Positions 4,143 through 59,146 of a stretch of DNA of 64,000 nt are shown here, piece after piece (within the stretch, counting starts at the first letter, position 1; each line of letters starts with the position of its first letter). Location: contig CAJNDS010002123.1 of the NCBI GenBank assembly GCA_905221605.1, positions 341,001 through 405,000 of the forward strand, in the 5' to 3' direction. Source of the DNA: Symbiodinium natans. Lineage: Eukaryota > Sar > Dinophyceae > Suessiales > Symbiodiniaceae. The notes beneath the pieces were generated by a model. It did no database searches, was not told the DNA's origin, and worked only from the letters and a program-made list of their open reading frames with translations. Position numbers and translations under genes: made by a program.

Positions 4143-4244
4143 CTTAGTTGCTGTGCTCATAAGCCCCAAAAAGTGCACCCTTTCAGTTCCATAGGGGACT
4201 ATCGTATCCCAAAAAGTGTAAAGTGTACTCATTCAGCTACTAAG
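4143..4244. mobile_element. Family B TIR element (introner-like), copy B1
   Basis: Starts CTTAGTTGC and ends CAGCTACTAAG, so the termini are inverted repeats. It is flanked by a perfect 4-bp duplication TGAA (4139-4142 and 4245-4248). The internal motif TATCCCAAAAAGTGTAAAG is shared with copies at 54.9 and 58.6 kb. The 58.6 kb copy lies inside a coding exon, so this family is the best introner candidate in the window. I could not establish whether the DNA around this copy is coding. Confidence 0.8.
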
Positions 4245-12732: not shown

Positions 12733-13818
12733 TCACTTTGCAGACTCGAGTATGTCAAGGGCTCGGCCAATGCGTGCACTGAGCGTTGTTAAGCTGATGC
12801 CGGCAGCACGAAACTCAGCAAGGGCTCCACGAGCAGCAGCCAAACGTTCCGGTGAGCGCGTTCGCAGCTTTGTTGCAACGAGTTCTTGTAAAGTCCACTT
12901 CTCTTCTTTTGGTTTGCGGAGCACTGTCGTCAAGTACGTCTCAATGAAGGCCATATCGGCCTGGATGCTGCTTTCCTTCATTTGCTGGACCACAGCCTGC
13001 ACTTTGCGCAAGCTTGCTTGCTTGTACGCACCGACGAGACAAGTATATGTAGCGATGTTGGGCTGTAAGCCCAAGTCGTCCAGTAAACGGAACAGAAACC
13101 CTGCTGCATTGTCATTCCTGCCAGAAGCTTCCCAGCAAGCACGGATGGCGGTAGTCACATGCCCAACATCTATTGGGACTCCAGTACGGTTCATTTCGTC
13201 TAGGACATCAGCTGCTGTCTTGACATCTCCCTCTCTTGCAGCAGCGACGATGCGTGCTCCTGCCAAGAACTCATCCAGCTCGCATGCCGTCCTAGATTCG
13301 TCCCAGATTTCCCTGACTACATCTGACTGGCCCAACTCTGCAAAGATCTTCATTGCAGTGGAATAGGTTGGTGCATCCTTAGATACCTTCTTCCTGCAGA
13401 GCTCGTCATACACTTTCGCCCCCTCCTTGAGTTGCCCGCAGTTGAGTGCATGATGTAACACAGCATGGAAGACAGGCAGCTCAGAACCACCATAACCAGC
13501 AAACAGACGGCGAATCTGTTGCCAATCTCCCCTTGCACCAGCTTCTGTCACTTTGGAAAGGAGGAGCTTCCCCGCTTTGCTGAGCAGTATCTTTCCGGTG
13601 TCCACCTGCACATGCTGTTGTATGCCGGCCTGCTCGCGAACAAGTCGCAGCGGACTTTGACCCTGTCTGCGCACTCCAAACCCACAGGGTTGCTGCCGTA
13701 GCGCGCCCAAGTACAACACAGCAAGTGCAGCTGCGAATCCTCGATGGCGGCACCTGAGCTTGTCCCAAGCAAGCCATGGCGCCATGACCACGGAAGTGCC
13801 TGTTGTGAACATCCACAT
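12733..13818 (-). CDS. Pentatricopeptide repeat (PPR) protein, 361 aa
   Basis: P-type PPR proteins bind single-stranded RNA in organelles and act in editing, cleavage, stability or translation. The specific RNA target cannot be read from this sequence. From about residue 112 onward there are about five tandem 34-36-residue helical pairs: VFHAVLHHALNCGQLKEGAK..., TYSTAMKIFAELGQSDVVRE..., a degenerate third ending VLDEMNRTGVPID, a fourth ending DDLGLQPN, and a fifth starting IATYTCLVGAYKQA. The N-terminus (about residues 18-45) holds a basic patch followed by a hydrophobic stretch (GFAAALAVLYLGAL), which fits an organelle-targeting or signal-anchor leader. The C-terminal third is helical with no extra domain. 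The frame is uninterrupted, so the gene is a single exon or retro-derived. The start at 13818 is the first in-frame ATG; a second lies 11 codons in. Large antisense frames are shadows. No telomere-type repeats interrupt this block, unlike its surroundings. Confidence 0.85.
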   Translation of the reverse strand: MWMFTTGTSVVMAPWLAWDKLRCRHRGFAAALAVLYLGALRQQPCGFGVRRQGQSPLRLVREQAGIQQHVQVDTGKILLSKAGKLLLSKVTEAGARGDWQQIRRLFAGYGGSELPVFHAVLHHALNCGQLKEGAKVYDELCRKKVSKDAPTYSTAMKIFAELGQSDVVREIWDESRTACELDEFLAGARIVAAAREGDVKTAADVLDEMNRTGVPIDVGHVTTAIRACWEASGRNDNAAGFLFRLLDDLGLQPNIATYTCLVGAYKQASLRKVQAVVQQMKESSIQADMAFIETYLTTVLRKPKEEKWTLQELVATKLRTRSPERLAAARGALAEFRAAGISLTTLSARIGRALDILESAK

Positions 13819-15217
13819 GATTTACCTGCACTTCCTACGGCTGCGTCCGTGACCATGGAGGCGTGAATTAACTAATCAGAGTGATCCAAGGTACAGGTCA
13901 GCGAGCCGCATGGCATGCATTGACTGCAACCCTTAGGCTTCTAAACCCTAAACCCTAACCCCGAAACCCTAAACCCTTTAGGGTGCAGGGCTTAGAGTGA
14001 GGATTGACCTGCCTGCTTTGAGGCGCTTGGCGATGGGCTCCGGCGCAATCCAGCCATCGAGCCAGTAGCCTTCATCATGACTTTTGGACTTAGCGTTTAG
14101 GGTTTGGGGTTTCGGGTTTTAGGGTTTGGTGTTCGGTGTTCAGATGGACTCCCTGATTCCTAAGCCTTAAGGTCTCAAGCCTTTGGCCTTGACTTGTATT
14201 GCAGGGCAGAGGTTTGGGGTGGCGTGGCGGGCGTTGAGGGTTTCAGAGAGCTCGGGCTCATCACTTTCAGGGCTGCCAGGTATGTCTTGTAGGTGCTCTT
14301 GATTGGCATAAACCTGACGCAACTTGACGTGGTGCTAAAGTTAATGCTTGCTGGCTTCTTGTTTAGGATGTAGAGTCACTACGGATTGTAGACGTACATG
14401 TCTATACATATATATATATATAGTTGCTTAGGACTTAGGGTGAATCAAATGGCGCTTGGGCCCTAAACCCTACCATCCTCAACCCTAAGCCCTGAAAGGG
14501 TTTGCCCAAATGTCCCTGCCTGGAAACTCGATGTCGTACTGGTCCTCCGAGGAGAGGGGAAAAACCCACGTTGCTTGCACCCGCCGCGTAATTTAGAGGC
14601 CCTTTGCTACAGCAAGGGTTAGGTACACAGGGTTTGGGGTTTACTTGCCTGCAGGTAAACCCTAAACCCTAAATACCCTAATTAAATCATAAAAAACAAA
14701 CCCGAAATCCTAAACCCTAAACCCTATTATAAACCCTACATCCCTCACAAAGGGCCTAGGGGCACCTTCTTGGCTCCTGGCCACCGGATGGTAACCTGGT
14801 TCAAAGCTGCATTCTTCAAGTTTTCAAAAGTGTCGAAGAGCCGTGAAGCGGGAAGTCCCCAAACACCGCGCAAACCCTGAACCCTAACCCTAAACCCTAA
14901 ACCCTAAACCCTAAAAACCCTAAACCCTAAACTGTCTAGGACTTGATTCCTGGCGAGACCAGGGGTGCTGGATAGTTGCGACTTTCAAGTTGAGGAGGCT
15001 TCAGTGCTTGGAAGATCCCTCACCCCAAGCTACCCAAAGGCTCCTCTGTAGTACCTTTTTGTAGTAGTATACTAGAATCCCCTATACCTGACACAAAACG
15101 GATCTACATGGGAGCCTTTGGGTTATGAGTAGAGAGTATGGGAGATCATCCTAAATGAGTTGCAAGTACCAAAAACTGAAGTGTAGAAAGGCCCTTGACC
15201 CTCCAGGATGCGGATGG

Positions 15218-19793: not shown

Positions 19794-20100
19794 ATTGTCT
19801 GCCGGTGACTCGAGATAATGTCACTGAAGGCATCTGGGGCGACCTCGATCTCTTTTCTGAAGAGGTCCATGAGTTTGAGGTGCCTCTCATGCGAAATCCG
19901 GTTCGGCGGGCGGGGGACATCCCTTGGAATGTCTTGGGCCCAGGTTGCAGAGTCCCAAGACGACTCGACAGCTGGCTGTGGCGTGTGCTGTGGCTTCGGG
20001 AGCTTTGGGCCATGCCTAGCCAACTCTGCCAACTTCATCTTCATCGACACCTTCATCGCCATCTGATCCGTATCACCTGGTCTCTGGATCTGGGCCTTGC
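19794..20100 (-). CDS. Gene P1, main exon (unrecognised protein, partial)
   Basis: Minus-strand open exon whose product runs from about KAQIQRPGDTDQMAMKVSMK through VESSWDSATWAQD and NRISHERHLKLMDLF to SDIISSHRQT. It is clearly paralogous to gene P2 at 58.4-58.8 kb (ESSWDSATW, NRVMHEKHLKFMD, VEVRPDVLEDLVS). The two positions that carry introns in P2 are uninterrupted here. The exon ends at a canonical donor: CAAT followed by GTGAGTACC (intron from 19793 downward). Upstream, separated by the family C repeat at 20.13-20.20 kb, is a second P1 segment (20214-20290). The protein family and function are unknown to me. The upstream leader resembles a transit or lumenal targeting peptide (see P2), so the product may be an organelle protein. 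Confidence 0.55.
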
Positions 20101-20129
20101 TCTCATAATAAGGGGGCACCCCTTTTTGG

Positions 20130-20202
20130 GGGGGTTGGTGACTTTATCAAGGGAACCTTGAACCAAAAAAAAGAAAGGGTAGAAGGTACCACTGGGCTAC
20201 CA
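20130..20202. mobile_element. Family C TIR element, copy C1, between two P1 exon-like segments
   Basis: The right end GGTACCACTGGGCTACC is shared with copies at 55.5 and 58.0 kb. The left terminus is degraded. It lies between two minus-strand segments that are both homologous to P2 exons, so it occupies an intron position. Confidence 0.6.
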
Positions 20203-20213
20203 AGGGACGTTGT

Positions 20214-23884: not shown

Positions 23885-24541
23885 ATGCCTTCCCCGAAGC
23901 GATGGCTCCAACTTGCCTCGGATGGTGGACAAGATGGTGGAGCTGGAAATGGTGCAGCTGAGTCTCTGGGTGAAAGATCGGTGTTGGAAGAGGTGATTCC
24001 CGACGCTGAAGTACATCTGGAAGAGGCCTTAGTTGCAGAAAGCCCCAATGCGGGTATGAATCCCAATAGGGATATGGTTAGCAATGCTGAAGCTGAAGGA
24101 CGTGCTGTTTCTGTACCGCCAAAGCCTGGTGAAAAAAGGAACTGGGATGCGACTGGTGGCATAGATCGTGAAATGGAGGTGACTGTTTTACGAGTGTTAC
24201 ACAAACACGGGTACCAGCCGTCGTCTTCGACTTCGGGTCGAATGGTAGACCAAGAGTCTCAGACCGATCTGATTGGAGAAGTGCTACAAGCGACCAGGAG
24301 GCCGTTGAAAAAAAAAAAAAAGGGTCCATCTTCGAGTTCCCAAGGTGGTGGAAGCGGTCACAAACAGAAGGGTGCGGACGGCTTTGAAGCTGCACCTGCT
24401 GCTGAATACGCCATGGGGGAGAAGGAGATCCTACAGATGGAGGCTGAACGGTTGCGACAGCTGTCAGAAGAAGAGGACGAGATGCGACAGGTTTCTGAAA
24501 GGGACGGTTTTCGGAAAGACGAGCATCTGATCCAAGTGTGA
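23885..24541 (+). CDS. Element ORF1: N-terminal part of the polyprotein (218 aa)
   Basis: Starts at the first ATG after the primer-binding site (MPSPKRWLQLASDGG) and ends at TGA 24539-24541. Composition is low-complexity and acidic, with a KKKKK patch coded by a 13-A run at about 24307. A charged helical, coiled-coil-like segment near the end (EKEILQMEAERLRQLSEEED) follows. No catalytic motif. The next frame (WW domain) begins only a few bases later in the +1 frame: reading past HLIQ with a +1 shift gives ...DGTMWELHLHEDG, which is continuous with the WW domain. So ORF1 and ORF2 probably form one product, through a +1 shift, a sequence error, or termination-reinitiation at this point. Confidence 0.65.
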   Translation: MPSPKRWLQLASDGGQDGGAGNGAAESLGERSVLEEVIPDAEVHLEEALVAESPNAGMNPNRDMVSNAEAEGRAVSVPPKPGEKRNWDATGGIDREMEVTVLRVLHKHGYQPSSSTSGRMVDQESQTDLIGEVLQATRRPLKKKKKGPSSSSQGGGSGHKQKGADGFEAAPAAEYAMGEKEILQMEAERLRQLSEEEDEMRQVSERDGFRKDEHLIQV

Positions 24542-24548
24542 TGGCACA

Positions 24549-26999
24549 ATGTGGGAATTGCACCTCCATGAAGATGGGAGACAATATTATTACTGCCTGG
24601 ATACGCACGAAACCAAGTGGACATTGCCGGTGGTAGGTGAAAAGGTGAAGAGTGACGAGGTGGTTGGGTCTCCTTTGGGCAATGAGCTGGAAATGGAGGC
24701 AGCACTGGATTCTTCATCCTCTACTCCGAAGACTGAGTCTACGAGGGCATTCCAGGGTAGTGTAAATAGTTTAGGTGAAAAAGATTTTTCCTCTACTATC
24801 AGGGATAGCGGTCCTAGGGCTGATGGTGACGCCCCGACCTCGGGTTCTCCTGATGAGGAAGGGATTCCTGGGAACCAAGCCAACATCGCTGGAGCTCAAC
24901 ACCTGGATCGGGAAGAAACAGAAGCGCTTTCTGAGGGTGGGGCAGCGATGGAATTGGTGGATCCAGAAGAGAAAATGCCCAATGAGGTGATCGGAACTGT
25001 GTCGGCTGCAGAAGAGCGAGTGGTGGATGTGGTACCTGTTGTTCAGGAAGGTGGTCCTGGAGATTCGGAGGATGGAGAGAAAAAGTTGTGTGTTACGACT
25101 GAGGAGGTCTCTTCGTTTGGTGCCAAGAATTCTGCCATTCAAGGGGAAAAAGAAGCTTCTGGAATAGCTGGAGACACGGATGATCTGAAAAATGAGGCCT
25201 GGAGCGCCAATGATGCGCGGGTTGATGCGCCAGATATTACCTGGAGTGCGAAGGAAGCACGGGTTGAGGTGCATGTGGTGGTACGTTCCACGGGCGACTG
25301 CAACAATGGGGCGCAGGTCTCCGCAGCAGCTGATGATGGAGGTTCACAGGTGGACGCACTGGTGCAACCTGAAGTTAGCAGCGAGGAACGAAATGACAAG
25401 GGCTACACCGGAGCCAATGAGGCAGCTGTGGTCAATGATGGTGGAAATTCTCCTTTGGAGGCCATGGAACCAAAGGAGCCTGCGGTGGAAGAAAGCGTGC
25501 CTGCCGTGGATGATCGACTCAATTGCCCTGCAGTGGAAGAAGATTTGCCTGCTGCAGAAGGTGAGACAAAGGACTCCAATGATGGGTCCACTCCCATGAA
25601 GGGAGAAGCGTTGCCGTCTGGAAGTTCACCGGAAGTCGACACCGAGCGAACTACAGCAGATGAGGCAAAGCCGTTGGCGGAGAAAAAGGGAGGTCCTGAA
25701 ATCCAGGAGCACAAAAAAGATGAGCTTGTGGGACTCGTGGAGCAGGACGAGCAGTGTGACCCAAAGGTGAAGACAAAGGATGCGCCAGGAGCCGATGATA
25801 CAGAGATGGTTTCTGAAGAGCGTGTAAAGAAAGTGCCCCGAGCGGGAGCCTTGGAGTCACCTGGGCCACATTGCTATCAAGAGGGAGATGAGATCATGGG
25901 TCTAGTGCGCTGCATCAATGGGTATGGAGCCTTTTTGGACCATGGGGATATGAATGTATTGATTCCTGCAGAAGGGAACAATGCATATCAGTTCAAGTTT
26001 GGTGATACTGTCAATGGAACAGTGAAACGAGTGGAAGATGATGGTACCATAATCTTGGACACCTTTCTGGTTTTGGAAGAGGACGTGGAGGACTCTTCTT
26101 CGACGCTGCGGAAGTGGAAACCCAGCGGCTGGAGTACGTGGTGGACGGATTCATGGTATGCTGGTCAATGGTACCAAGATTCCAACGGTCAATGGGACTG
26201 GAAACAGGAGGAAGAGCAATCCGATGAAGAGCTTGTGGTACAGGAGTTGTCTTCTGAAGAACGAAAAGAAAGGCAACTTTATGGAGAAAAGATCTACAAA
26301 GCTCTTCTGGAGAATGGAAATGAAGAGGAAGCCTATGTTGGCAAAATTACTGGGATGCTGTTAGGTCGGCCGATGGAAGATTTACAGGAGTGTGTTGCGG
26401 ATCAGGCATTCCTCAATGCGGAAGCTCGGCGCGCGTATGGCATCTTGCAAGATGATGGTTGGGAGCCTGATGGTACAGAAAACACAGGTTTGGGGGAGTT
26501 AACCACCTTTTCCCGAACACAGTACCACAACGCGCTCTTCGAACTGGCACGTAGGAAAAGGAGATTTTCTCGACCAGTTGTGGGTGATGCGGTGGCAGTG
26601 GTGCTGGATCAAGGGGAAGAGGAGTTTTGGAACGCGCTTTGGTTGGACACCAAGCTATTTTTGCAGGAGCTTGATGGTGCAGTGCAATCCATGAGCAAAA
26701 GGGAGAACAAGCCAATGGAAGCCTACATGGATCCTGACCAGTACAAAAAGGCTTACATGACACCAAAGACGGTGTTGTCACCTGGTTACAGCAAGCTGTG
26801 CAGGTTCTTCAATAAGGGAAGGTGTCGCAATGGCGATGGGTGTCCCTATGAGCATCGTCGGTACGGTGAAGGTTGGCCAGAAGGGGGTCAACTGATCCAA
26901 AGAATAGCCAAGAAGCTGATGATGAGGACGGGAACATCGGTGACCCTCCCACAGAGGAAGGTACAGTGGATGAGGCACAGCAGGAGCGGGAGGATTTAG
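24549..26999 (+). CDS. Element ORF2: WW domain, S1-like domain, CCCH finger (816 aa)
   Basis: Residues 2-27 form a textbook WW domain (W2, DGRQYYY, T.W, P), a module that binds proline-rich peptides. Residues about 30-440 are acidic and disordered. About 445-510 matches an S1/OB fold (GDEIMGLVRCINGYGAFLDH, then LIPAEG, FGDTVNGTVKRV), which binds RNA. A tryptophan-rich patch follows (GWSTWWTDSWYAGQWYQD, about residue 525). About 749-768 is a CCCH zinc finger, C-X7-C-X5-C-X3-H (CRFFNKGRCRNGDGCPYEH). The last 40 residues are in the wrong frame. At the GGGGG run near 26883, shifting back one base gives WPEGGSTDPKNSQEADDEDG, continuous with ORF3. This is an RNA-binding architecture, not a classical Gag-Pol. 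Confidence 0.75.
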   Translation: MWELHLHEDGRQYYYCLDTHETKWTLPVVGEKVKSDEVVGSPLGNELEMEAALDSSSSTPKTESTRAFQGSVNSLGEKDFSSTIRDSGPRADGDAPTSGSPDEEGIPGNQANIAGAQHLDREETEALSEGGAAMELVDPEEKMPNEVIGTVSAAEERVVDVVPVVQEGGPGDSEDGEKKLCVTTEEVSSFGAKNSAIQGEKEASGIAGDTDDLKNEAWSANDARVDAPDITWSAKEARVEVHVVVRSTGDCNNGAQVSAAADDGGSQVDALVQPEVSSEERNDKGYTGANEAAVVNDGGNSPLEAMEPKEPAVEESVPAVDDRLNCPAVEEDLPAAEGETKDSNDGSTPMKGEALPSGSSPEVDTERTTADEAKPLAEKKGGPEIQEHKKDELVGLVEQDEQCDPKVKTKDAPGADDTEMVSEERVKKVPRAGALESPGPHCYQEGDEIMGLVRCINGYGAFLDHGDMNVLIPAEGNNAYQFKFGDTVNGTVKRVEDDGTIILDTFLVLEEDVEDSSSTLRKWKPSGWSTWWTDSWYAGQWYQDSNGQWDWKQEEEQSDEELVVQELSSEERKERQLYGEKIYKALLENGNEEEAYVGKITGMLLGRPMEDLQECVADQAFLNAEARRAYGILQDDGWEPDGTENTGLGELTTFSRTQYHNALFELARRKRRFSRPVVGDAVAVVLDQGEEEFWNALWLDTKLFLQELDGAVQSMSKRENKPMEAYMDPDQYKKAYMTPKTVLSPGYSKLCRFFNKGRCRNGDGCPYEHRRYGEGWPEGGQLIQRIAKKLMMRTGTSVTLPQRKVQWMRHSRSGRI

Positions 27000-27466
27000 C
27001 CTTCCGGGCCAAGTACAATTTTGGCAAAGGTGCATCAAAGGGTGAGCCTACGTCAGGTGAGCCAAAAGGTCGGCTGTGCTTGTATTACAATCAAGGTGCT
27101 TGTAAATATGGGACTGCATGCAGGTACCTTCACAACGATGATGTAGCATTGGAAGGGACTTGGGAGCCCGGCAAATCTTGGGACAATGCTTCCAGGAAGG
27201 CGCTAAGGGACGCAGGGTTCCACAATTGCTGTTTCGATTATTACCTCCGAGGACGTTGCCGGAAAGGGTTAAATTTCTGCAAGTACTCACACGACGAGAT
27301 GTCCGAGGAGCGGTCAACACTCCTGAAACACCTGGTACACGTGGCCAATCAGGTCCGGTTTGAAAGGAGAGAGGATGGGAGATCTCGGACAGAAGCACTT
27401 TTCAGCCACCTGCAAGTGGGGGAGCTGAATCCTCCTCATCCTCGGCACCAAAAGCACTGCAAATGA
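26873..27466 (+). CDS. Element ORF3: two CCCH zinc fingers (no start codon of its own)
   Basis: The frame is open from 26870 to TGA 27464-27466 but has no ATG before the zinc fingers, so it must be translated as a continuation of ORF2. It encodes an acidic linker, then CLYYNQGACKYGTACRYLH (C-X7-C-X5-C-X3-H) and CFDYYLRGRCRKGLNFCKYS followed by H (C-X8-C-X6-C-X3-H). CCCH fingers of this type bind single-stranded RNA. Near 27410 a second one-base step back at TTTT gives EALFQPPASGGAESSSSS, continuous with ORF4. The nominal stop overlaps the ORF4 ATG as ATGA. Confidence 0.7.
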   Translation: MARRGSTDPKNSQEADDEDGNIGDPPTEEGTVDEAQQEREDLAFRAKYNFGKGASKGEPTSGEPKGRLCLYYNQGACKYGTACRYLHNDDVALEGTWEPGKSWDNASRKALRDAGFHNCCFDYYLRGRCRKGLNFCKYSHDEMSEERSTLLKHLVHVANQVRFERREDGRSRTEALFSHLQVGELNPPHPRHQKHCK

Positions 27467-30400
27467 CCAATGTGTCACAAAAAGATGGTGAAAAAGGTAT
27501 TCTGGATGAAGTAGAAGCTGATGAGCAAAAGAATTCGGTGGCTGCATCCACTAGTACTCAGCTTCACAATCCGGAGGAGCCGATTGAAAATTGGATGGCT
27601 CGCAACGCACACCTGTGGGTGTATACCCCTCATGTAAGTGAGGTGATGATTACGCTTGGTGTGACCAATGTGTCGGACTTGCAAGAGTTCATCTTTGTGG
27701 AAGATTTGGTTGACAAAGGGATCAACAAAGTGACCGCATGCAAAATTCTGCAATTGGTGGGTGAGGTCCGATATCGACCGGGAGGACCGGAAAAGGCAGT
27801 TCCTTCTGATGCATCTGTACGGGTACAACAATCTTCTGGGAACAAAGGGACTGGAAGAGCGGCGGTGCGAACCCTCACTCAGGTGCGTGAAGCTGAAGAC
27901 TCCGGTGCAAAAACTATGCCGAGAGGCTCCTATCGGGAGCTTTTTGATAAGGTCAGGTACCGTGATGGTTGGACGCTTGCGCAGAGGTCTCCGTTGTGCG
28001 TACAGAAGCTGCGGTTGGTGGGAGTTGGAATGCCGCCGGTGAATCCACCAACGAAAAAGTATCGGTCAAGATCAAACCCTGTAAGAAGGGGAAGGCCCTT
28101 GCTGGACAAAAAACAGGTGCGACAGGTGCCACGATCTCGGTCACAACGACGAGTGCAACTGGCGGAAGTGGTGGAAAAACCGAAGCCACTGGAGCCGGTG
28201 AAACCTCGTGGTGGTTTGTCGTATCCATTCAGCAGAGCGTGGGCAGATGTGGTGGATGATGATGACCAGGCGGAGGCTTTGGTCTCGTATGCCGCTTCCT
28301 CAAGCCCTTCAAGCGAGGAGGAGACCAATGCGGTACAACGCCTGAAGGAACTCTTTTTGCAAGAAAGGGATTCGTGGAGAACTGCGAGTCGTGGCAATGT
28401 TCCACAAAGTGGTTCTTCAGGCTCCAGTGATGGGCCGAAAAAATCGGTTCACCTTGGCGAAGGGCGCGACAAAGCGTCGCGGGGGGAGACCCGCCAAGAA
28501 GTGACTTCACAAGTTTTTTCGCTACCACAACCTTCTCGTCGAGCTGAACGGTCTCAAAAAAGAACAAGGGATGGTTCAGTTATGGTTGGTTCGCTGGCGG
28601 TGGGCTCCACGGATGAGGTTTTACCTGGGCAAGGTGCTGCTGGACAGGTGAATGTCTCTGAAAGCGCTCAAGTTCTTCCTGGGCATGAAGTGGCTGGACA
28701 GGAGACGGCGCCGGAAGGAGCAGTACAGATTTCTGGCGAGGAGACCGACCAAAAAGAAGGAGAAGGCGGGAGCAATGATCTCCGTGGTAATGATGCGAAG
28801 ATGTTGGATGGTGGTCCGGTGAGGAGTGACCTTCAGCAATTGCTGGTGAAAGGCCTTCTGACTCGAATTTATTGGAAGGTTGCAGTTGGCAAGTTGCCAA
28901 TGGGGCAAAGAGATTGCCAAAAAGGGTCCAATAAGATGGATCGAAATTTGGTTATTAGCATGTCATCCGAGGGTGCAAGCGAACAGGATGAGAACCTGGC
29001 ACTGGAGGACGATGCTGATCAGTCAATGGGAGACGGTGCAATGGTTATGGTGTATGATCCAGGAACGCTGATCCAGTCGCCAACAACTGATTGGGTTATG
29101 CGTCGCGGTCTGACCGATCGTACCGTCTGGCCAGCAATGGCGCACCTGGCACAGAGGATATGTGCTGAAATGGTTCAAGTGGATGAAATGAATGCCCAGC
29201 TAGGGACTGGAACACTCCTTTTTCAAAGGAGAGATCAAGGATATTATACTGACCTGCATCATTCGTTCCATGACAACCCGTGCTTGCCGGCGGTGGGGAA
29301 TTACCCTCTTTCGGTGATGGGTGCCTTGTTGTCTCCTGGTCTGGAAGGGGAATTCAAGAATACGGACAAGTTTGGTACTGCTATGGAGGCAATTGCCTAT
29401 GATTGGAGCCGCAGTCCAGGCATGGAAGTTCATATTGAACTTATGGCGAGGGTAGCCAAAATGGTTCACCCATTCCTGAATCTGGGAGCACAAGGGTCGG
29501 TGATGGTTTCAGAATTTCTCTGGCAGCGCGGGAGGGCTCGGTTGATGGAGTTTCTTCAAGCGGCGACTTGTGCGGACCAATTGGAGGCTCTCTGGAGAAG
29601 GATGGACGACGATGCGGATGAGGAGGTGGATCCTTCGACAGCGATGCTGGAAGTTCTTGGACTAGAGGATGCGGTGCTTGATCAAGGGAACAATGAATCC
29701 CTTATTCCCATTGAAGATGCTGGAGGTGAGACAAGCGGTGACACTGGAGGGAAGGGCAAAGCGCCAGAAGTTTCTCCGGAAGAGGAGAAATCCAGTGGGT
29801 CATCCAGACTGGCGGACACAAGGATTTTCTTGTGGTCAGTGTACTCCCGCGTGGCTTCGAATTTCTCTATGCAGGACCGCACTACTGGTAAGATCTTTGA
29901 CAGCACCAAAGGATATCCTGGTGAAGGACCAAACAATGATGACAATCCTTCCTCTAAGGGGAACTTTCCCTGGATTTCAGAAGACTACCTCGACGAAGTG
30001 GTGTCAAAAAAGATGGAAAGGTCTTCAGATATGGATGGGTTTGTTCCGGGAAGTGAGGGATCATTGGAAAAGGTAGAGGTGGAGAATGTTACTGCCTCTA
30101 AAATTCTTATGGCTCTTTGGAAGAAGGGACATAGAGTTGGGTTTAGAAGGTTGCGTCGTTTGAATGCATCTGGATGCAAGGTTGGAGCAATGAAACGTCC
30201 AATCAAAAGGGTGCAGAAGATTGGCGCTAGGAAGGCCTTCATGAAGATGTTCAATGTTTTTGGATCGTCTCAGCATGGCTCAGGAGTTGGCGGAAAACCG
30301 ATCATGAAGGTGGTAGGACCAAGGCCAGGTTTTCCAGCTGTACTCCAAGCACCAAATACTGATAGCACGTCGGGTGAAGGGAGCAGTCCCCAGGTACATG

Positions 30401-31716
30401 GCAATGTTCATGTAGAGCACAGTCGCCCTATGGACCGGTATGAGGCAGAGCGCTTGGAGAAGAGGAAGAAGGGTTTCTGCTATTGGTTTGGCAAAGGGAA
30501 AGATCGCTGCAAATTTGGTGACGACTGCAAATTCATCCATTCCGAAGATGATGTGGTGCTACATTCATATTGGTGCAAGTACTATGTGGCAGGGAGAGAA
30601 TGTTTCGCTGGAAAGGATTGTGAGTTCTCGCATGATGCAACTGGTGTGAGGTGCGTCCAGTTTGCTCGGTCTGGGAAGTGTCGGTTTGGTGACAGGTGTG
30701 TCTTTGGACATGAGGTTCCGTTGGAAAAACAGAGGCCAAGGTCTCCAAGGACGCCCCCAAGGGATGGTCCAAGGAGAAAGTCTGGTGCAAATGGTGGAAA
30801 AAAGGAGATCTCTCCTGAACAGTTCGGTGATGATGAGGAGGATTTTATGGTTTATGACGAAGAGACCAAGATGACGGAACTGTTGATGGAGGCGATTTCA
30901 TTTCTGTCCAATGGCAAGTCAGATTTGGCTCGAGCAGAGGCGGACCCATTGTTCAAACTCCTGAAGATCACTGGAGATGCTGACTACATGGATCAAGTAT
31001 GGGTTTCGTGGACCACTGAAATGTTGTCAGTGCTGGAACTTCTCGAAGTAGTGAAGTCGTACGATGTTTCGCTCGCGGAGGTGGAAGAATGGGTCAATGA
31101 CCTGAGGATATGGTATGAGCGAGCCAATTTGGGAGAAGAAAAGGATCCCAAAAAAGGGAAAAAGAGGTCCCTAGAAGGGGAGTCCAGCAAAGATATTCCT
31201 GCCGAAAAAGAAGTGGTTGAGACTTCGGAGACGGAGGTTGCCGTTGAGGAGGAGAAGAAAAAGGTAAAAAAGAAGAGGAAAGCTGCAGCTATCGAAGATC
31301 CTTATACCCTCATGGTTCCAAAGCCGAAGAAGATGCCGGCGGTCATTGAGAAGGGTGGATCATCATCCAATGTGGTGGTTTCTGCAGTGGAAAAAGCCTC
31401 AAAAGCGCGCACAAAGTCAAATGTCGGTGGAAAGACAAAGAAGAAGGAGAAAAGTCAGAGTCCCAAAAAAGAAGAGGTGGTAATGGTGCAAGATCCTGAG
31501 GAAAAGGATCGTCCATCCGATGCGGAGGCACCAGGGTCTGCCAATGCGAATGAAGAGCTGGATCAATCTTGCCAGGCGATTGAGGATGCGAAGAGAGAAG
31601 GATTGGTATCCTCAATTCAAAGGGGCATACAGGATCCTGTTCTTACAGTTTCGGACCTGGAGTATATTCTGCTGCAACTTCACCTCAAGATTGCCAACAA
31701 TCGGAAAAAGAAGTGA
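27463..31716 (+). CDS. Element ORF4: SAM-like domain, unknown core, three CCCH fingers (1,417 aa)
   Basis: In-frame coding extends upstream of the ATG to about 27364, supporting fusion to ORF3. Residues about 42-105 (ENWMARNAHLWVYTPHV... to VTACKILQLVGEV) fit a SAM-type helical bundle (W start, GV..VSDLQEF, EDLVDKGI, KIL). About 180-480 is basic/serine-rich. About 530-760 is a hydrophobic folded region of unknown family (VMRRGLTDRTVWPAMAHLAQ, FLWQRGRARLMEFLQAATCA). Residues about 1004-1085 hold three CCCH fingers in tandem (X9/X5/X3, X8/X5/X3, X8/X5/X3). The C-terminus has acidic helices and a KKKVKKKRK nuclear-localisation-like cluster. No polymerase, integrase or protease motif is seen. It could be a captured host RNA-processing gene or a highly derived capsid/nucleocapsid protein. 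Confidence 0.75.
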   Translation: MTNVSQKDGEKGILDEVEADEQKNSVAASTSTQLHNPEEPIENWMARNAHLWVYTPHVSEVMITLGVTNVSDLQEFIFVEDLVDKGINKVTACKILQLVGEVRYRPGGPEKAVPSDASVRVQQSSGNKGTGRAAVRTLTQVREAEDSGAKTMPRGSYRELFDKVRYRDGWTLAQRSPLCVQKLRLVGVGMPPVNPPTKKYRSRSNPVRRGRPLLDKKQVRQVPRSRSQRRVQLAEVVEKPKPLEPVKPRGGLSYPFSRAWADVVDDDDQAEALVSYAASSSPSSEEETNAVQRLKELFLQERDSWRTASRGNVPQSGSSGSSDGPKKSVHLGEGRDKASRGETRQEVTSQVFSLPQPSRRAERSQKRTRDGSVMVGSLAVGSTDEVLPGQGAAGQVNVSESAQVLPGHEVAGQETAPEGAVQISGEETDQKEGEGGSNDLRGNDAKMLDGGPVRSDLQQLLVKGLLTRIYWKVAVGKLPMGQRDCQKGSNKMDRNLVISMSSEGASEQDENLALEDDADQSMGDGAMVMVYDPGTLIQSPTTDWVMRRGLTDRTVWPAMAHLAQRICAEMVQVDEMNAQLGTGTLLFQRRDQGYYTDLHHSFHDNPCLPAVGNYPLSVMGALLSPGLEGEFKNTDKFGTAMEAIAYDWSRSPGMEVHIELMARVAKMVHPFLNLGAQGSVMVSEFLWQRGRARLMEFLQAATCADQLEALWRRMDDDADEEVDPSTAMLEVLGLEDAVLDQGNNESLIPIEDAGGETSGDTGGKGKAPEVSPEEEKSSGSSRLADTRIFLWSVYSRVASNFSMQDRTTGKIFDSTKGYPGEGPNNDDNPSSKGNFPWISEDYLDEVVSKKMERSSDMDGFVPGSEGSLEKVEVENVTASKILMALWKKGHRVGFRRLRRLNASGCKVGAMKRPIKRVQKIGARKAFMKMFNVFGSSQHGSGVGGKPIMKVVGPRPGFPAVLQAPNTDSTSGEGSSPQVHGNVHVEHSRPMDRYEAERLEKRKKGFCYWFGKGKDRCKFGDDCKFIHSEDDVVLHSYWCKYYVAGRECFAGKDCEFSHDATGVRCVQFARSGKCRFGDRCVFGHEVPLEKQRPRSPRTPPRDGPRRKSGANGGKKEISPEQFGDDEEDFMVYDEETKMTELLMEAISFLSNGKSDLARAEADPLFKLLKITGDADYMDQVWVSWTTEMLSVLELLEVVKSYDVSLAEVEEWVNDLRIWYERANLGEEKDPKKGKKRSLEGESSKDIPAEKEVVETSETEVAVEEEKKKVKKKRKAAAIEDPYTLMVPKPKKMPAVIEKGGSSSNVVVSAVEKASKARTKSNVGGKTKKKEKSQSPKKEEVVMVQDPEEKDRPSDAEAPGSANANEELDQSCQAIEDAKREGLVSSIQRGIQDPVLTVSDLEYILLQLHLKIANNRKKK

Positions 31717-54865: not shown

Positions 54866-54970
54866 CTTAGCTGCTGAGTTCAGAAGCCCCCCCCAAAAAA
54901 TCTACGCTTTTAGTTTTGTAGAGATTATAGTATCCCAAAAATTGTAAAGTGTACTTACTCAGCTACTAAG
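54866..54970. mobile_element. Family B TIR element (introner-like), copy B2
   Basis: CTTAGCTGCTGAGT at the left and ACTCAGCTACTAAG at the right: 14-bp terminal inverted repeats with two mismatches. Flanked by AATTT on both sides (54861-54865, 54971-54975). The internal motif TATCCCAAAAATTGTAAAG matches B1 and B3. Confidence 0.85.
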
Positions 54971-57960: not shown

Positions 57961-58069
57961 GGTAGCCCAGTAACCATCTCACAAGAAGGCTACCTTCTTT
58001 GTGGTTGGCTACTTTTGTATAAGGGAACGCGGACTCAAAGAAAAGGGCAAAGGGTACCACTGGGCTACC
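57961..58069. mobile_element. Family C TIR element, copy C3 (best copy)
   Basis: GGTAGCCCAGTAACC at the left and GGTACCACTGGGCTACC at the right form inverted termini. The middle AAAGAAAAGGGCAAAGG is shared with C1 and C2. Confidence 0.75.
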
Positions 58070-58359
58070 AAGGGATGAGAGCGACTGCACTCCAAGATCG
58101 AGTCCCATCCCTAGCGTGCTGATCAGCCATGATGGTGCTGACAGCAGCTAGAGTCCTCAAGTCCCTTCCCGGCAGGGCCTTAACCACACTCCCCTTAGAA
58201 CCTTACCAAGAACATTACTATTGCTAATATTCCCTTGGGTGTTAAATAAATAGCAAATGAAAGTCATTCCCAAGGAGGCTACAGTCAAGGCCTTTCGCCC
58301 TTAAGATCTTGTGAAACGTTTCAGGTGACTGGCGGCTGCCAAGCTTTGGGCCAGGGTTC

Positions 58360-59146
58360 TCAGTCCTCGCTCGTCTGCCGTCGTACGCTGACAAGGTCTT
58401 CAAGGACATCGGGCCTCACTTCCACTTGCTTCCTCTTGGCTGCACTTAGGAGGGAAGCAAAAAATTAAACTTCTAGCTGCCTTATGAAGAAACCCCATAA
58501 ACCCAAAAAAGGCTAGAGATGTAAAGTTACAGTAAAGCACCACAAAAGTCCTGAAAGTGTCCATGAATTTCAGGTGCTTCTCGTGCATCACCCGATTCGG
58601 CTTGCCTTAGTTGCCGAAATCATCGGCCCCAAAAAGCCCAAAAAAGAAAGTGTAGACTGTCAGTTCTGTAGGGGATTCTAGTATCCAAAAAGTGTAAGAT
58701 GTGTACTCACTCAGCTGCTAAGTTGCGCGGCACGCCCCTTGGAAGGTCCTTCTTCCAAGTTGCGGAGTCCCAGGATGACTCGAAGAGCACCTCGGCTGGG
58801 CCTTATAAAACCCTCAAAAGCTTTAGGGACTTTAGGGTTTAGGGTTTGGGGTTTAGGGTTTGGGGTTTAGGGTTTAAGATATAGGGTTTAGGGCTACTCT
58901 TCCTGAATAGGATCCTCTTAAACCCAATTAATGGGAAAGAATAAACACAACAATTACCCGAAGGGCGTACCTAGGCACGACCTGGGAAAAGCCATGGTGG
59001 TCTATTTTCTTTGCCTGGGCATTGGCAGGATGGATTTGGACCCCTGCGGCGCATCCCATGGCTAACAGAACGCAGCGGCAACTCTTACGGGAGGGGCCGC
59101 AACGCGCTCGCTCACTTGAGCCTGAAGTCGACGTTGCTGTATCCAT
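58360..59146 (-). CDS. Gene P2: unrecognised protein with at least three introns
   Basis: Minus-strand exons supported by comparison with P1: leader 59015-59146, 58727-58802, 58551-58605 and 58360-58433. The last three splice into one unbroken frame, EVLFESSWDSATWKKD, LPRGVPRKPNRVMHEKHL, KFMDTFRKQVEVRPDVLE, DLVSVRRQTSED, stop TGA 58360-58362. The junctions are GC-AG (58606-58726) and GA-AG (58434-58550). The leader ends at a GC donor (CCCAG then GCAAAG). It encodes a basic stretch, a short hydrophobic run (CVLLAMGCAAGVQ) and ANAQA, resembling an organelle or thylakoid-lumen targeting peptide with an A-x-A cleavage site (inference). The connection from the leader exon to 58802 is not fixed and probably includes another exon. 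The family is unknown to me. An ATG at 59146 overlaps the end of element G2. Confidence 0.6.
58434..58550 (-). mobile_element. Family N intron-like repeat, copy N2: GA-AG intron of P2 (117 bp)
   Basis: In gene orientation: CAG, then GACTTTTGTGG ... CAGCCAAGAG, then GAAGCAAG. Removal joins TTC-AGG-AAG and gives DTFRKQVEV, which aligns to DLFRKEIEV of P1 with no gap. A homologous copy lies at 17711-17803. Dinoflagellate introns are known to use GA and GC donors besides GT. Confidence 0.8.
58606..58722 (-). mobile_element. Family B TIR element inside a P2 exon, copy B3 (introner)
   Basis: Termini CTTAGTTGCC and AGCTGCTAAG are inverted. A 4-bp duplication TTGC flanks it (58602-58605, 58723-58726). 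In gene orientation the target duplication GCAA provides a GC donor and the element's CTAAG end provides the AG acceptor. Removing GCAA plus the element (58606-58726) gives VPRKPNRV, matching VPRPPNRI of P1 exactly in length. Confidence 0.85.
58803..59014 (-). other. Intron region of P2 containing telomere-type repeats
   Basis: Lies between the leader exon and the exon at 58802. Contains about eight TTTAGGG or TTTGGGG units (58828-58893). A missing exon equivalent to the P1 segment KAQIQRPGDTDQ was not found here. Confidence 0.5.

Follow-up and report, generated by a model that had tools for sequence, protein, structure and literature searches.

The closest described counterparts of the locus treated here are the introners of Symbiodinium microadriaticum, for which the same recruitment of splice sites is described in the accessible part of the report by Gozashti et al. 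(2022, PMC9860276). The principle of introner gain by such elements has thus been in print for that species since 2022. In the part of PMC11453091 available to us, Roy et al. (2023) are cited for dinoflagellate genomes that each contain several families of introners, for their recent activity and for many intron gains, and the same part gives the share of GC-AG and GA-AG introns in Symbiodiniaceae as 25-74%, so that such donors are ordinary there. In the literature searched, a partial coverage with subscription papers mostly outside it, no report on introners of Symbiodinium natans was recognised. Full-length transcripts have been produced for this species according to PMC8045281.

The window analysed here, i.e., the whole stretch of 64,000 nucleotides of S. 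natans DNA to which all plain coordinates refer, contains a small gene termed P2 and its paralogue P1. One exon of P2 is interrupted by an element (58606-58722) that is very probably an introner: a DNA-transposon-like element (MITE) that inserted into the exon and now appears to be spliced as a GC-AG intron, the splicing being predicted from the DNA.

The element in P2 and its target site

Direct reading agreed with the earlier note in that a 117-bp element with inverted termini and a 4-bp target duplication lies in P2, the exact tetranucleotide TTGC (forward strand) being present at both edges, 58602-58605 and 58723-58726. With the element and one TTGC taken out, P2 reads on the minus strand ESSWDSATWKKDLPRGVPR directly followed by KPNRVMHEKHLKFMDTFR, and P1 has the unbroken ESSWDSATWAQDIPRDVPRPPNRISHERHLKLMDLFR; the P1 counterpart of the rejoined junction lies in the exon 19969-19796, which has no interruption, just as had been claimed. 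The rejoined DNA passes from ...GTGCCGC to GCAAGCCGAATCGG... and is translated as ...GVPRKPNRV..., which bears out the restoration of VPRKPNRV described earlier, and compared with P1 codons are neither added nor lost.

According to the mechanism that we propose, a non-autonomous DNA-transposon-like element, probably moved by a transposase supplied in trans, would have inserted into the P2 exon, with duplication of a four-base target that reads GCAA in the direction of the gene. The spliceosome would excise a GC-AG intron of 121 nt made up of the element and one of the two duplicates, for which the 5' copy of the duplication would provide the GC and the inverted terminus CTAAG the AG at the 3' end, while the 3' copy would restore the exon. 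All of the DNA evidence fits this assignment of donor and acceptor, which had been put forward in the earlier note. The predicted intron 2 (58606-58726) reads GCAACTTAG...ACTAAG, and the predicted junction joins ...GTGCCGC to GCAAGCCG. Its length is 1 modulo 3, and its retention would shift the frame.

The P2 gene model (C1811:399360-400059 in contig coordinates) is complete, with an ATG at 59059, 90 codons (MGCAAG...TSED) and the stop codon TGA at 58362-58360; start and stop resemble those of the paralogues. Three insertions that had been absent from the earlier note were found in addition, namely those corresponding to introns 1 and 3 of P2 and one in P1 (Table 1). For intron 3 the fitting splice register is GA-AG (58433-58550), and the AGGA duplication itself yields both the GA and the AG. 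The three frame-restoring insertions in P2 would use three donor types, GT, GC and GA. If insertion 1, 2 or 3 alone were retained, 43, 54 or 116 codons, respectively, would precede the first stop; the third, when retained, shifts the frame, yet it is stop-free in its own entry frame.

Table 1. Coordinates of features in the window, with strand and characteristics
Feature	Position	Strand	Remarks
P2 gene model	58360-59059	-	exons 59059-58979, 58790-58727, 58605-58553, 58434-58360
P2 intron 1 (predicted)	58791-58978, 188 nt	-	duplication GTGC/GTGC, GT-AG; telomere-like repeats inside; absent from L049
Family B element, 117 bp, CTTAG...CTAAG termini	58606-58722	-	predicted intron 2 of P2; antisense to family consensus
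GCAA target duplicate on the 5' side of the element (gene direction)	58723-58726	-	predicted source of GC donor
GCAA target duplicate on the 3' side of the element (gene direction)	58602-58605	-	opens next exon, AG/G context
P2 intron 3 (predicted), family A element	58435-58552, 118 nt with one duplication	-	AGGA/AGGA, inferred GA-AG
P1 gene model, 114 codons	19790-20247	-	exons 20247-20209 and 20095-19790; unbroken at family B and A sites
P1 insertion, family C	20208-20096	-	duplication GTCC/GCCC, GT-AG
Family B copy	4143-4244	+	duplication TGAA/TGAA; nhmmer E 1.1e-31; 79/102 bases identical to P2 copy
Family B copy	54866-54970	+	flanks share AATTT; nhmmer E 2e-27; 76/101 bases identical to P2 copy
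Family C occurrences	20096-20208; 58043-58090; about 55504		also in loci L020 and L055 outside the window

Telomere-like tracts (TTTAGGG/CCCTAAA) are scattered across much of the window (283-60131), some of them within introner-like insertions such as 58791-58978. Long open frames are present at 12733-13821 (-) and 24531-31716 (+); by eye, one is PPR-like and two have WW-like and CCCH-like motifs.

Paralogues, empty sites and the state of P2

When the P1 exon was searched against the whole genome (45 candidates scored), 27 matches were obtained that represent 26 places including P1 itself, L049 and L054 being halves of one gene. P2, being split, was not among them. The family B site is read through in 26 of the 26 places, a count from an exon-by-exon search that is biased to uninterrupted genes. 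Two relatives, L030 and L032, contain the entire protein from MGCAAG onward in single open frames. In a tree built from 21 proteins of this set the closest paralogue of P2 is L049 (81% identity, support 97/94), and since L049 is continuous at all three sites the insertions of P2 are to be read as gains.

Insertions are also found elsewhere in the P family, and in each of the following cases removal joins the sequence in frame: L049 has one of its own (duplication GAAA, GA-AG), L051 carries another (GAAAC/GAAAC, GA-AG), as does L055 (GCTC/GTTC, GC-AG), and the pair L033 and L036 has one in common (GAAG/GAAA and GAAG/GAAT, GA-AG). Together with the three in P2 and the one in P1, the P family thus contains at least eight insertions. 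Pfam gave no family match for P2 or for an 84-residue part of P1. An N-terminal MGCGA or MGCAA, which may resemble an N-acylation motif, is common among the proteins of the P family in the wider sense. At least four P-family genes (L034, L035, L037 and L038; G000:C2063:257326-261998) are arranged head to tail at distances of about 1.5 kb.

P2 might itself be a dead copy, in which case the element would be a MITE sitting in a pseudogene and never spliced. Dead copies do occur in the P family, where the relative L052 looks frame-shifted and is a probable pseudogene. P2, however, carries three separate insertions that are each removable, leaving a frame that is intact from the start codon to a stop codon in the customary position. 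Over 57 codons, comparison with P1 resulted in a dN of 0.30 and a dS of 1.42, i.e., a dN/dS of about 0.21, and family B cleanly interrupts other open genes as described below. We therefore consider a dead P2 improbable and return to a gene with an intact frame and a very probably spliced element.

Family B across the genome and in other genes

For two further members of the family in the window, target duplications of their own had been claimed earlier. The copy at 4143 has a clean one; that at 54866 also belongs to the family, though its flanks share five bases and the exact 4-base duplication did not hold up. A loose scan of the window (CTT...AAG, inverted ends agreeing at 9/14 positions, exact 4-bp duplication) gave three hits and was not significant, 20 shuffles giving a mean of 0.85 and a largest value of 3, so that the case rests on the copies in the genome. 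A genome-wide search, which the earlier note had suggested, proved productive: a strict two-ended pattern matched 366 times (165 forward, 201 reverse) and its reversed control not once, 4-bp duplications were frequent, and further genic copies emerged.

Application of a profile built from the three window copies to the fetched loci yielded 24 full-length copies, the window three included, after two truncated hits had been discarded together with eight loci present in duplicate; the 4-bp duplication was exact in 14 of these, agreed at three of four positions in eight and at one or none in two. A separate set comprised 60 copies taken in near listed order from about 100 listed of the 366, some already sampled or of unusual or longer length being skipped. 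Here, 30 copies have an exact 4-bp duplication and the other half do not, whereas 1000 shuffled pairings gave 0.77 on average and never more than 5. The flanks match at a frequency of 0.72-0.78 at each of the four duplication positions and of 0.18-0.38 outside. An exact 5-bp duplication occurs in 2/60; sharing of five bases was seen in the copy at 54866 and in L152. The 60 copies are 96-111 bp long (44 of them 102-105 bp, consensus 103 bp). Family B thus has the features of a MITE, i.e., inverted ends, a 4-bp duplication and many short copies of uniform length without coding capacity. The copy in P2 is diverged, with 79% likeness to the 60 sampled copies, which are themselves 87% alike on average, and on present mobility it is uninformative for that reason.

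In an open-frame screen all 60 copies were considered in both orientations (120 cases) over 190 bases across the joined flanks. An open joined frame was present in 26 cases stemming from 19 copies, and frames from 18 of these 26 cases (8 + 10) were run against Pfam. The 19 copies were extended and read on both strands; extension was confined to these 19 of the 60, so that genes made up of short exons could escape notice. Joined frames of at least 700 bases occurred in 6/19 in antisense and in 0/19 in sense orientation, the longest sense frame (693 bases) lying opposite an ion channel gene. Among the 60 sampled copies, a genic location was recognised for only six. Beyond P2, eight copies in six genes appear to be removable as GT-AG, GC-AG or GA-AG introns, and the cases followed have a frame-restoring removal register with AG at the 3' end. 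Similar sequences as introns at unrelated positions, by which introners are recognised, are accordingly found in S. natans by inference from DNA.

The ion channel gene (L116; duplication GCTT, GC-AG) gives, when rejoined, an Ion_trans match with an E value of 7.5e-15 over residues 44-233 that spans the junction near residue 135; its 5' half alone has no match in Pfam and its 3' half alone reaches 5.6e-7. Two copies about 0.6 kb apart, L119 (duplication GTGG, GT-AG) and L152 (GAAGC, five bases, GA-AG), reside in one MFS transporter gene (G000:C413:938764-939578). At the L152 site the frame continues to 398 codons if five bases are removed and is lost if four are removed. The joined protein matches MFS_1 (E 4.1e-18, 65.9 bits) from residue 128 to residue 383, a stretch that includes the second junction; the part before this junction alone scores 52.8 bits and the part after it has no match. 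In L118 (GATT, GA-AG), the whole joined protein matches RCC1_2 (E 9.5e-44), and the junction falls within a repeat unit that neighbouring units, judged by eye, have uninterrupted. Long open frames are also restored in L117 (GAAC, GA-AG) and L120 (GTAG, GT-AG), neither of which has a match in Pfam; the L117 protein has what we presume to be a dynein-like look.

An Ostalpha-like gene (L020) contains two family B copies (GTCG/GTCC and GTGT/GTGT, both GT-AG) and a family C insertion (GTTC/GTTC). Its joined protein, which contains one guessed exon junction, matches PF03619 over residues 3-154 with an E value of 7.5e-5 and 22.6 bits, just below the cut-off of 24.9, and the match spans the first B copy and the family C site only, not the second B copy. 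The separate pieces have no Pfam match. For this gene there is no second copy in the genome, hence no empty site, and no match to a solved structure. Another family B copy (L014:2614-2715), with a TTGC duplication and a mutated end, lies within a joined open frame of 735 nt that has no Pfam match; a clean AG is not present at the usual place.

Spread of the introner via RNA by reverse splicing, with no DNA transposase involved, is a mode proposed for fungal introners in the part of PMC9860276 at hand. For family B we judge it very improbable, given that the inverted ends of the consensus agree at 13/14 positions, that 4-bp duplications are frequent and that only 6/60 sampled copies were recognised as genic, the remainder having been tested less than exhaustively. 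An ancestral intron lost from P1 and the remaining paralogues is possible in principle but can be practically dismissed, as loss would be required in every paralogous place found, the closest one included, and the intron, which is bordered by a target duplication, belongs to a repeat that the strict pattern matched 366 times. Insertion of a DNA-transposon-like element into P2 is thus the reading retained.

All nine recognised genic copies, P2 included, are antisense, and all nine duplications start with G (GT 4, GC 2, GA 3). The antisense bias of genic family B copies rests on the reading of 19 copies on both strands. In an unselected test, a G[TCA] duplication was present in 7/13 copies with an open joined frame compared with 16/47 of the other copies in antisense orientation (p=0.16, not significant), and in 4/13 compared with 11/47 in sense orientation (p=0.42). 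One genic copy (C413:939479) was scored as non-G in this test since its duplication, GAAGC, has five bases. As the effect of G is not significant here, the G-first rule, resting on the recognised genic copies, is only a lead. Scoring by codon usage was unable to tell coding and non-coding cases apart among the joined flanks. We propose tentatively, and with not quite even confidence, that family B becomes an intron only if it inserts in antisense orientation into a G-first target (GT, GC or GA donor, AG/G acceptor) and, separately, that at least eight insertions from several families in one small gene family allow donor choice to be compared inside a 90-codon gene.

The 22-base left end of family A occurs 637 times in the genome (control 0). 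Out of 1587 candidates 40 were scored, and 20 of the best-scoring matches to the copy in P2 were fetched, 19 of which fitted the extraction pattern. These 19 best-scoring copies are 96.6% alike, a uniformity that is overestimated because the best matches were chosen, and 12 of them have an exact 4-bp duplication. Family A has probably been active recently and is likely younger than family B. For family C, at least 40 matches were found in the genome (best 40 scored of 1359 candidates). Its element begins with CTTGGTAGCCCAGTGG, presumably resembling a tRNA-type A box.

Significance and comparison with known systems

Frame restoration, empty paralogous sites, the intact frame of P2, the dN/dS ratio and the genic family members all support the reading of a TIR element as an intron. 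The earlier note had called the locus direct evidence for intron gain by such an element; the gain is upheld by the frame, the empty sites and the other genic copies, while "direct" is too strong a word for splicing deduced at the DNA level. What appears to be new is confined to the families and the loci, to a gene with three introners whose sites are empty in paralogues, and to the possible rule of antisense orientation and G-first duplication. The origin of new introns is a long-standing question, and here a single genome contains the states before and after, which even share a window. With three inserts of three donor types in one 90-codon gene, and with paralogues that have or lack an insert, these loci are suited to testing the tolerance of GC and GA donors and the orientation in which an element is spliceable.

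Family 1 of the S. microadriaticum introners (a sequence of which lies on LSRX01000224.1:86725-86839), according to the accessible part of PMC9860276, has the mechanism that is proposed here for family B; it stems from another species, and the likeness is one of description. MITEs in general resemble family B in short length, inverted ends, target duplication and lack of coding capacity. With the dinoflagellate introners of Roy et al. (2023), as represented in the available part of PMC11453091, the S. natans elements have in common multiple families per genome, recent activity and many intron gains. The introner elements of Amoebophrya (Farhat et al., 2021, PMC7789003, as far as the accessible part goes) are alike in having inverted repeats and direct repeats of 3-5 nt at the intron edges, whereas their splice motifs are very varied and the S. 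natans insertions have GT, GC or GA with AG.
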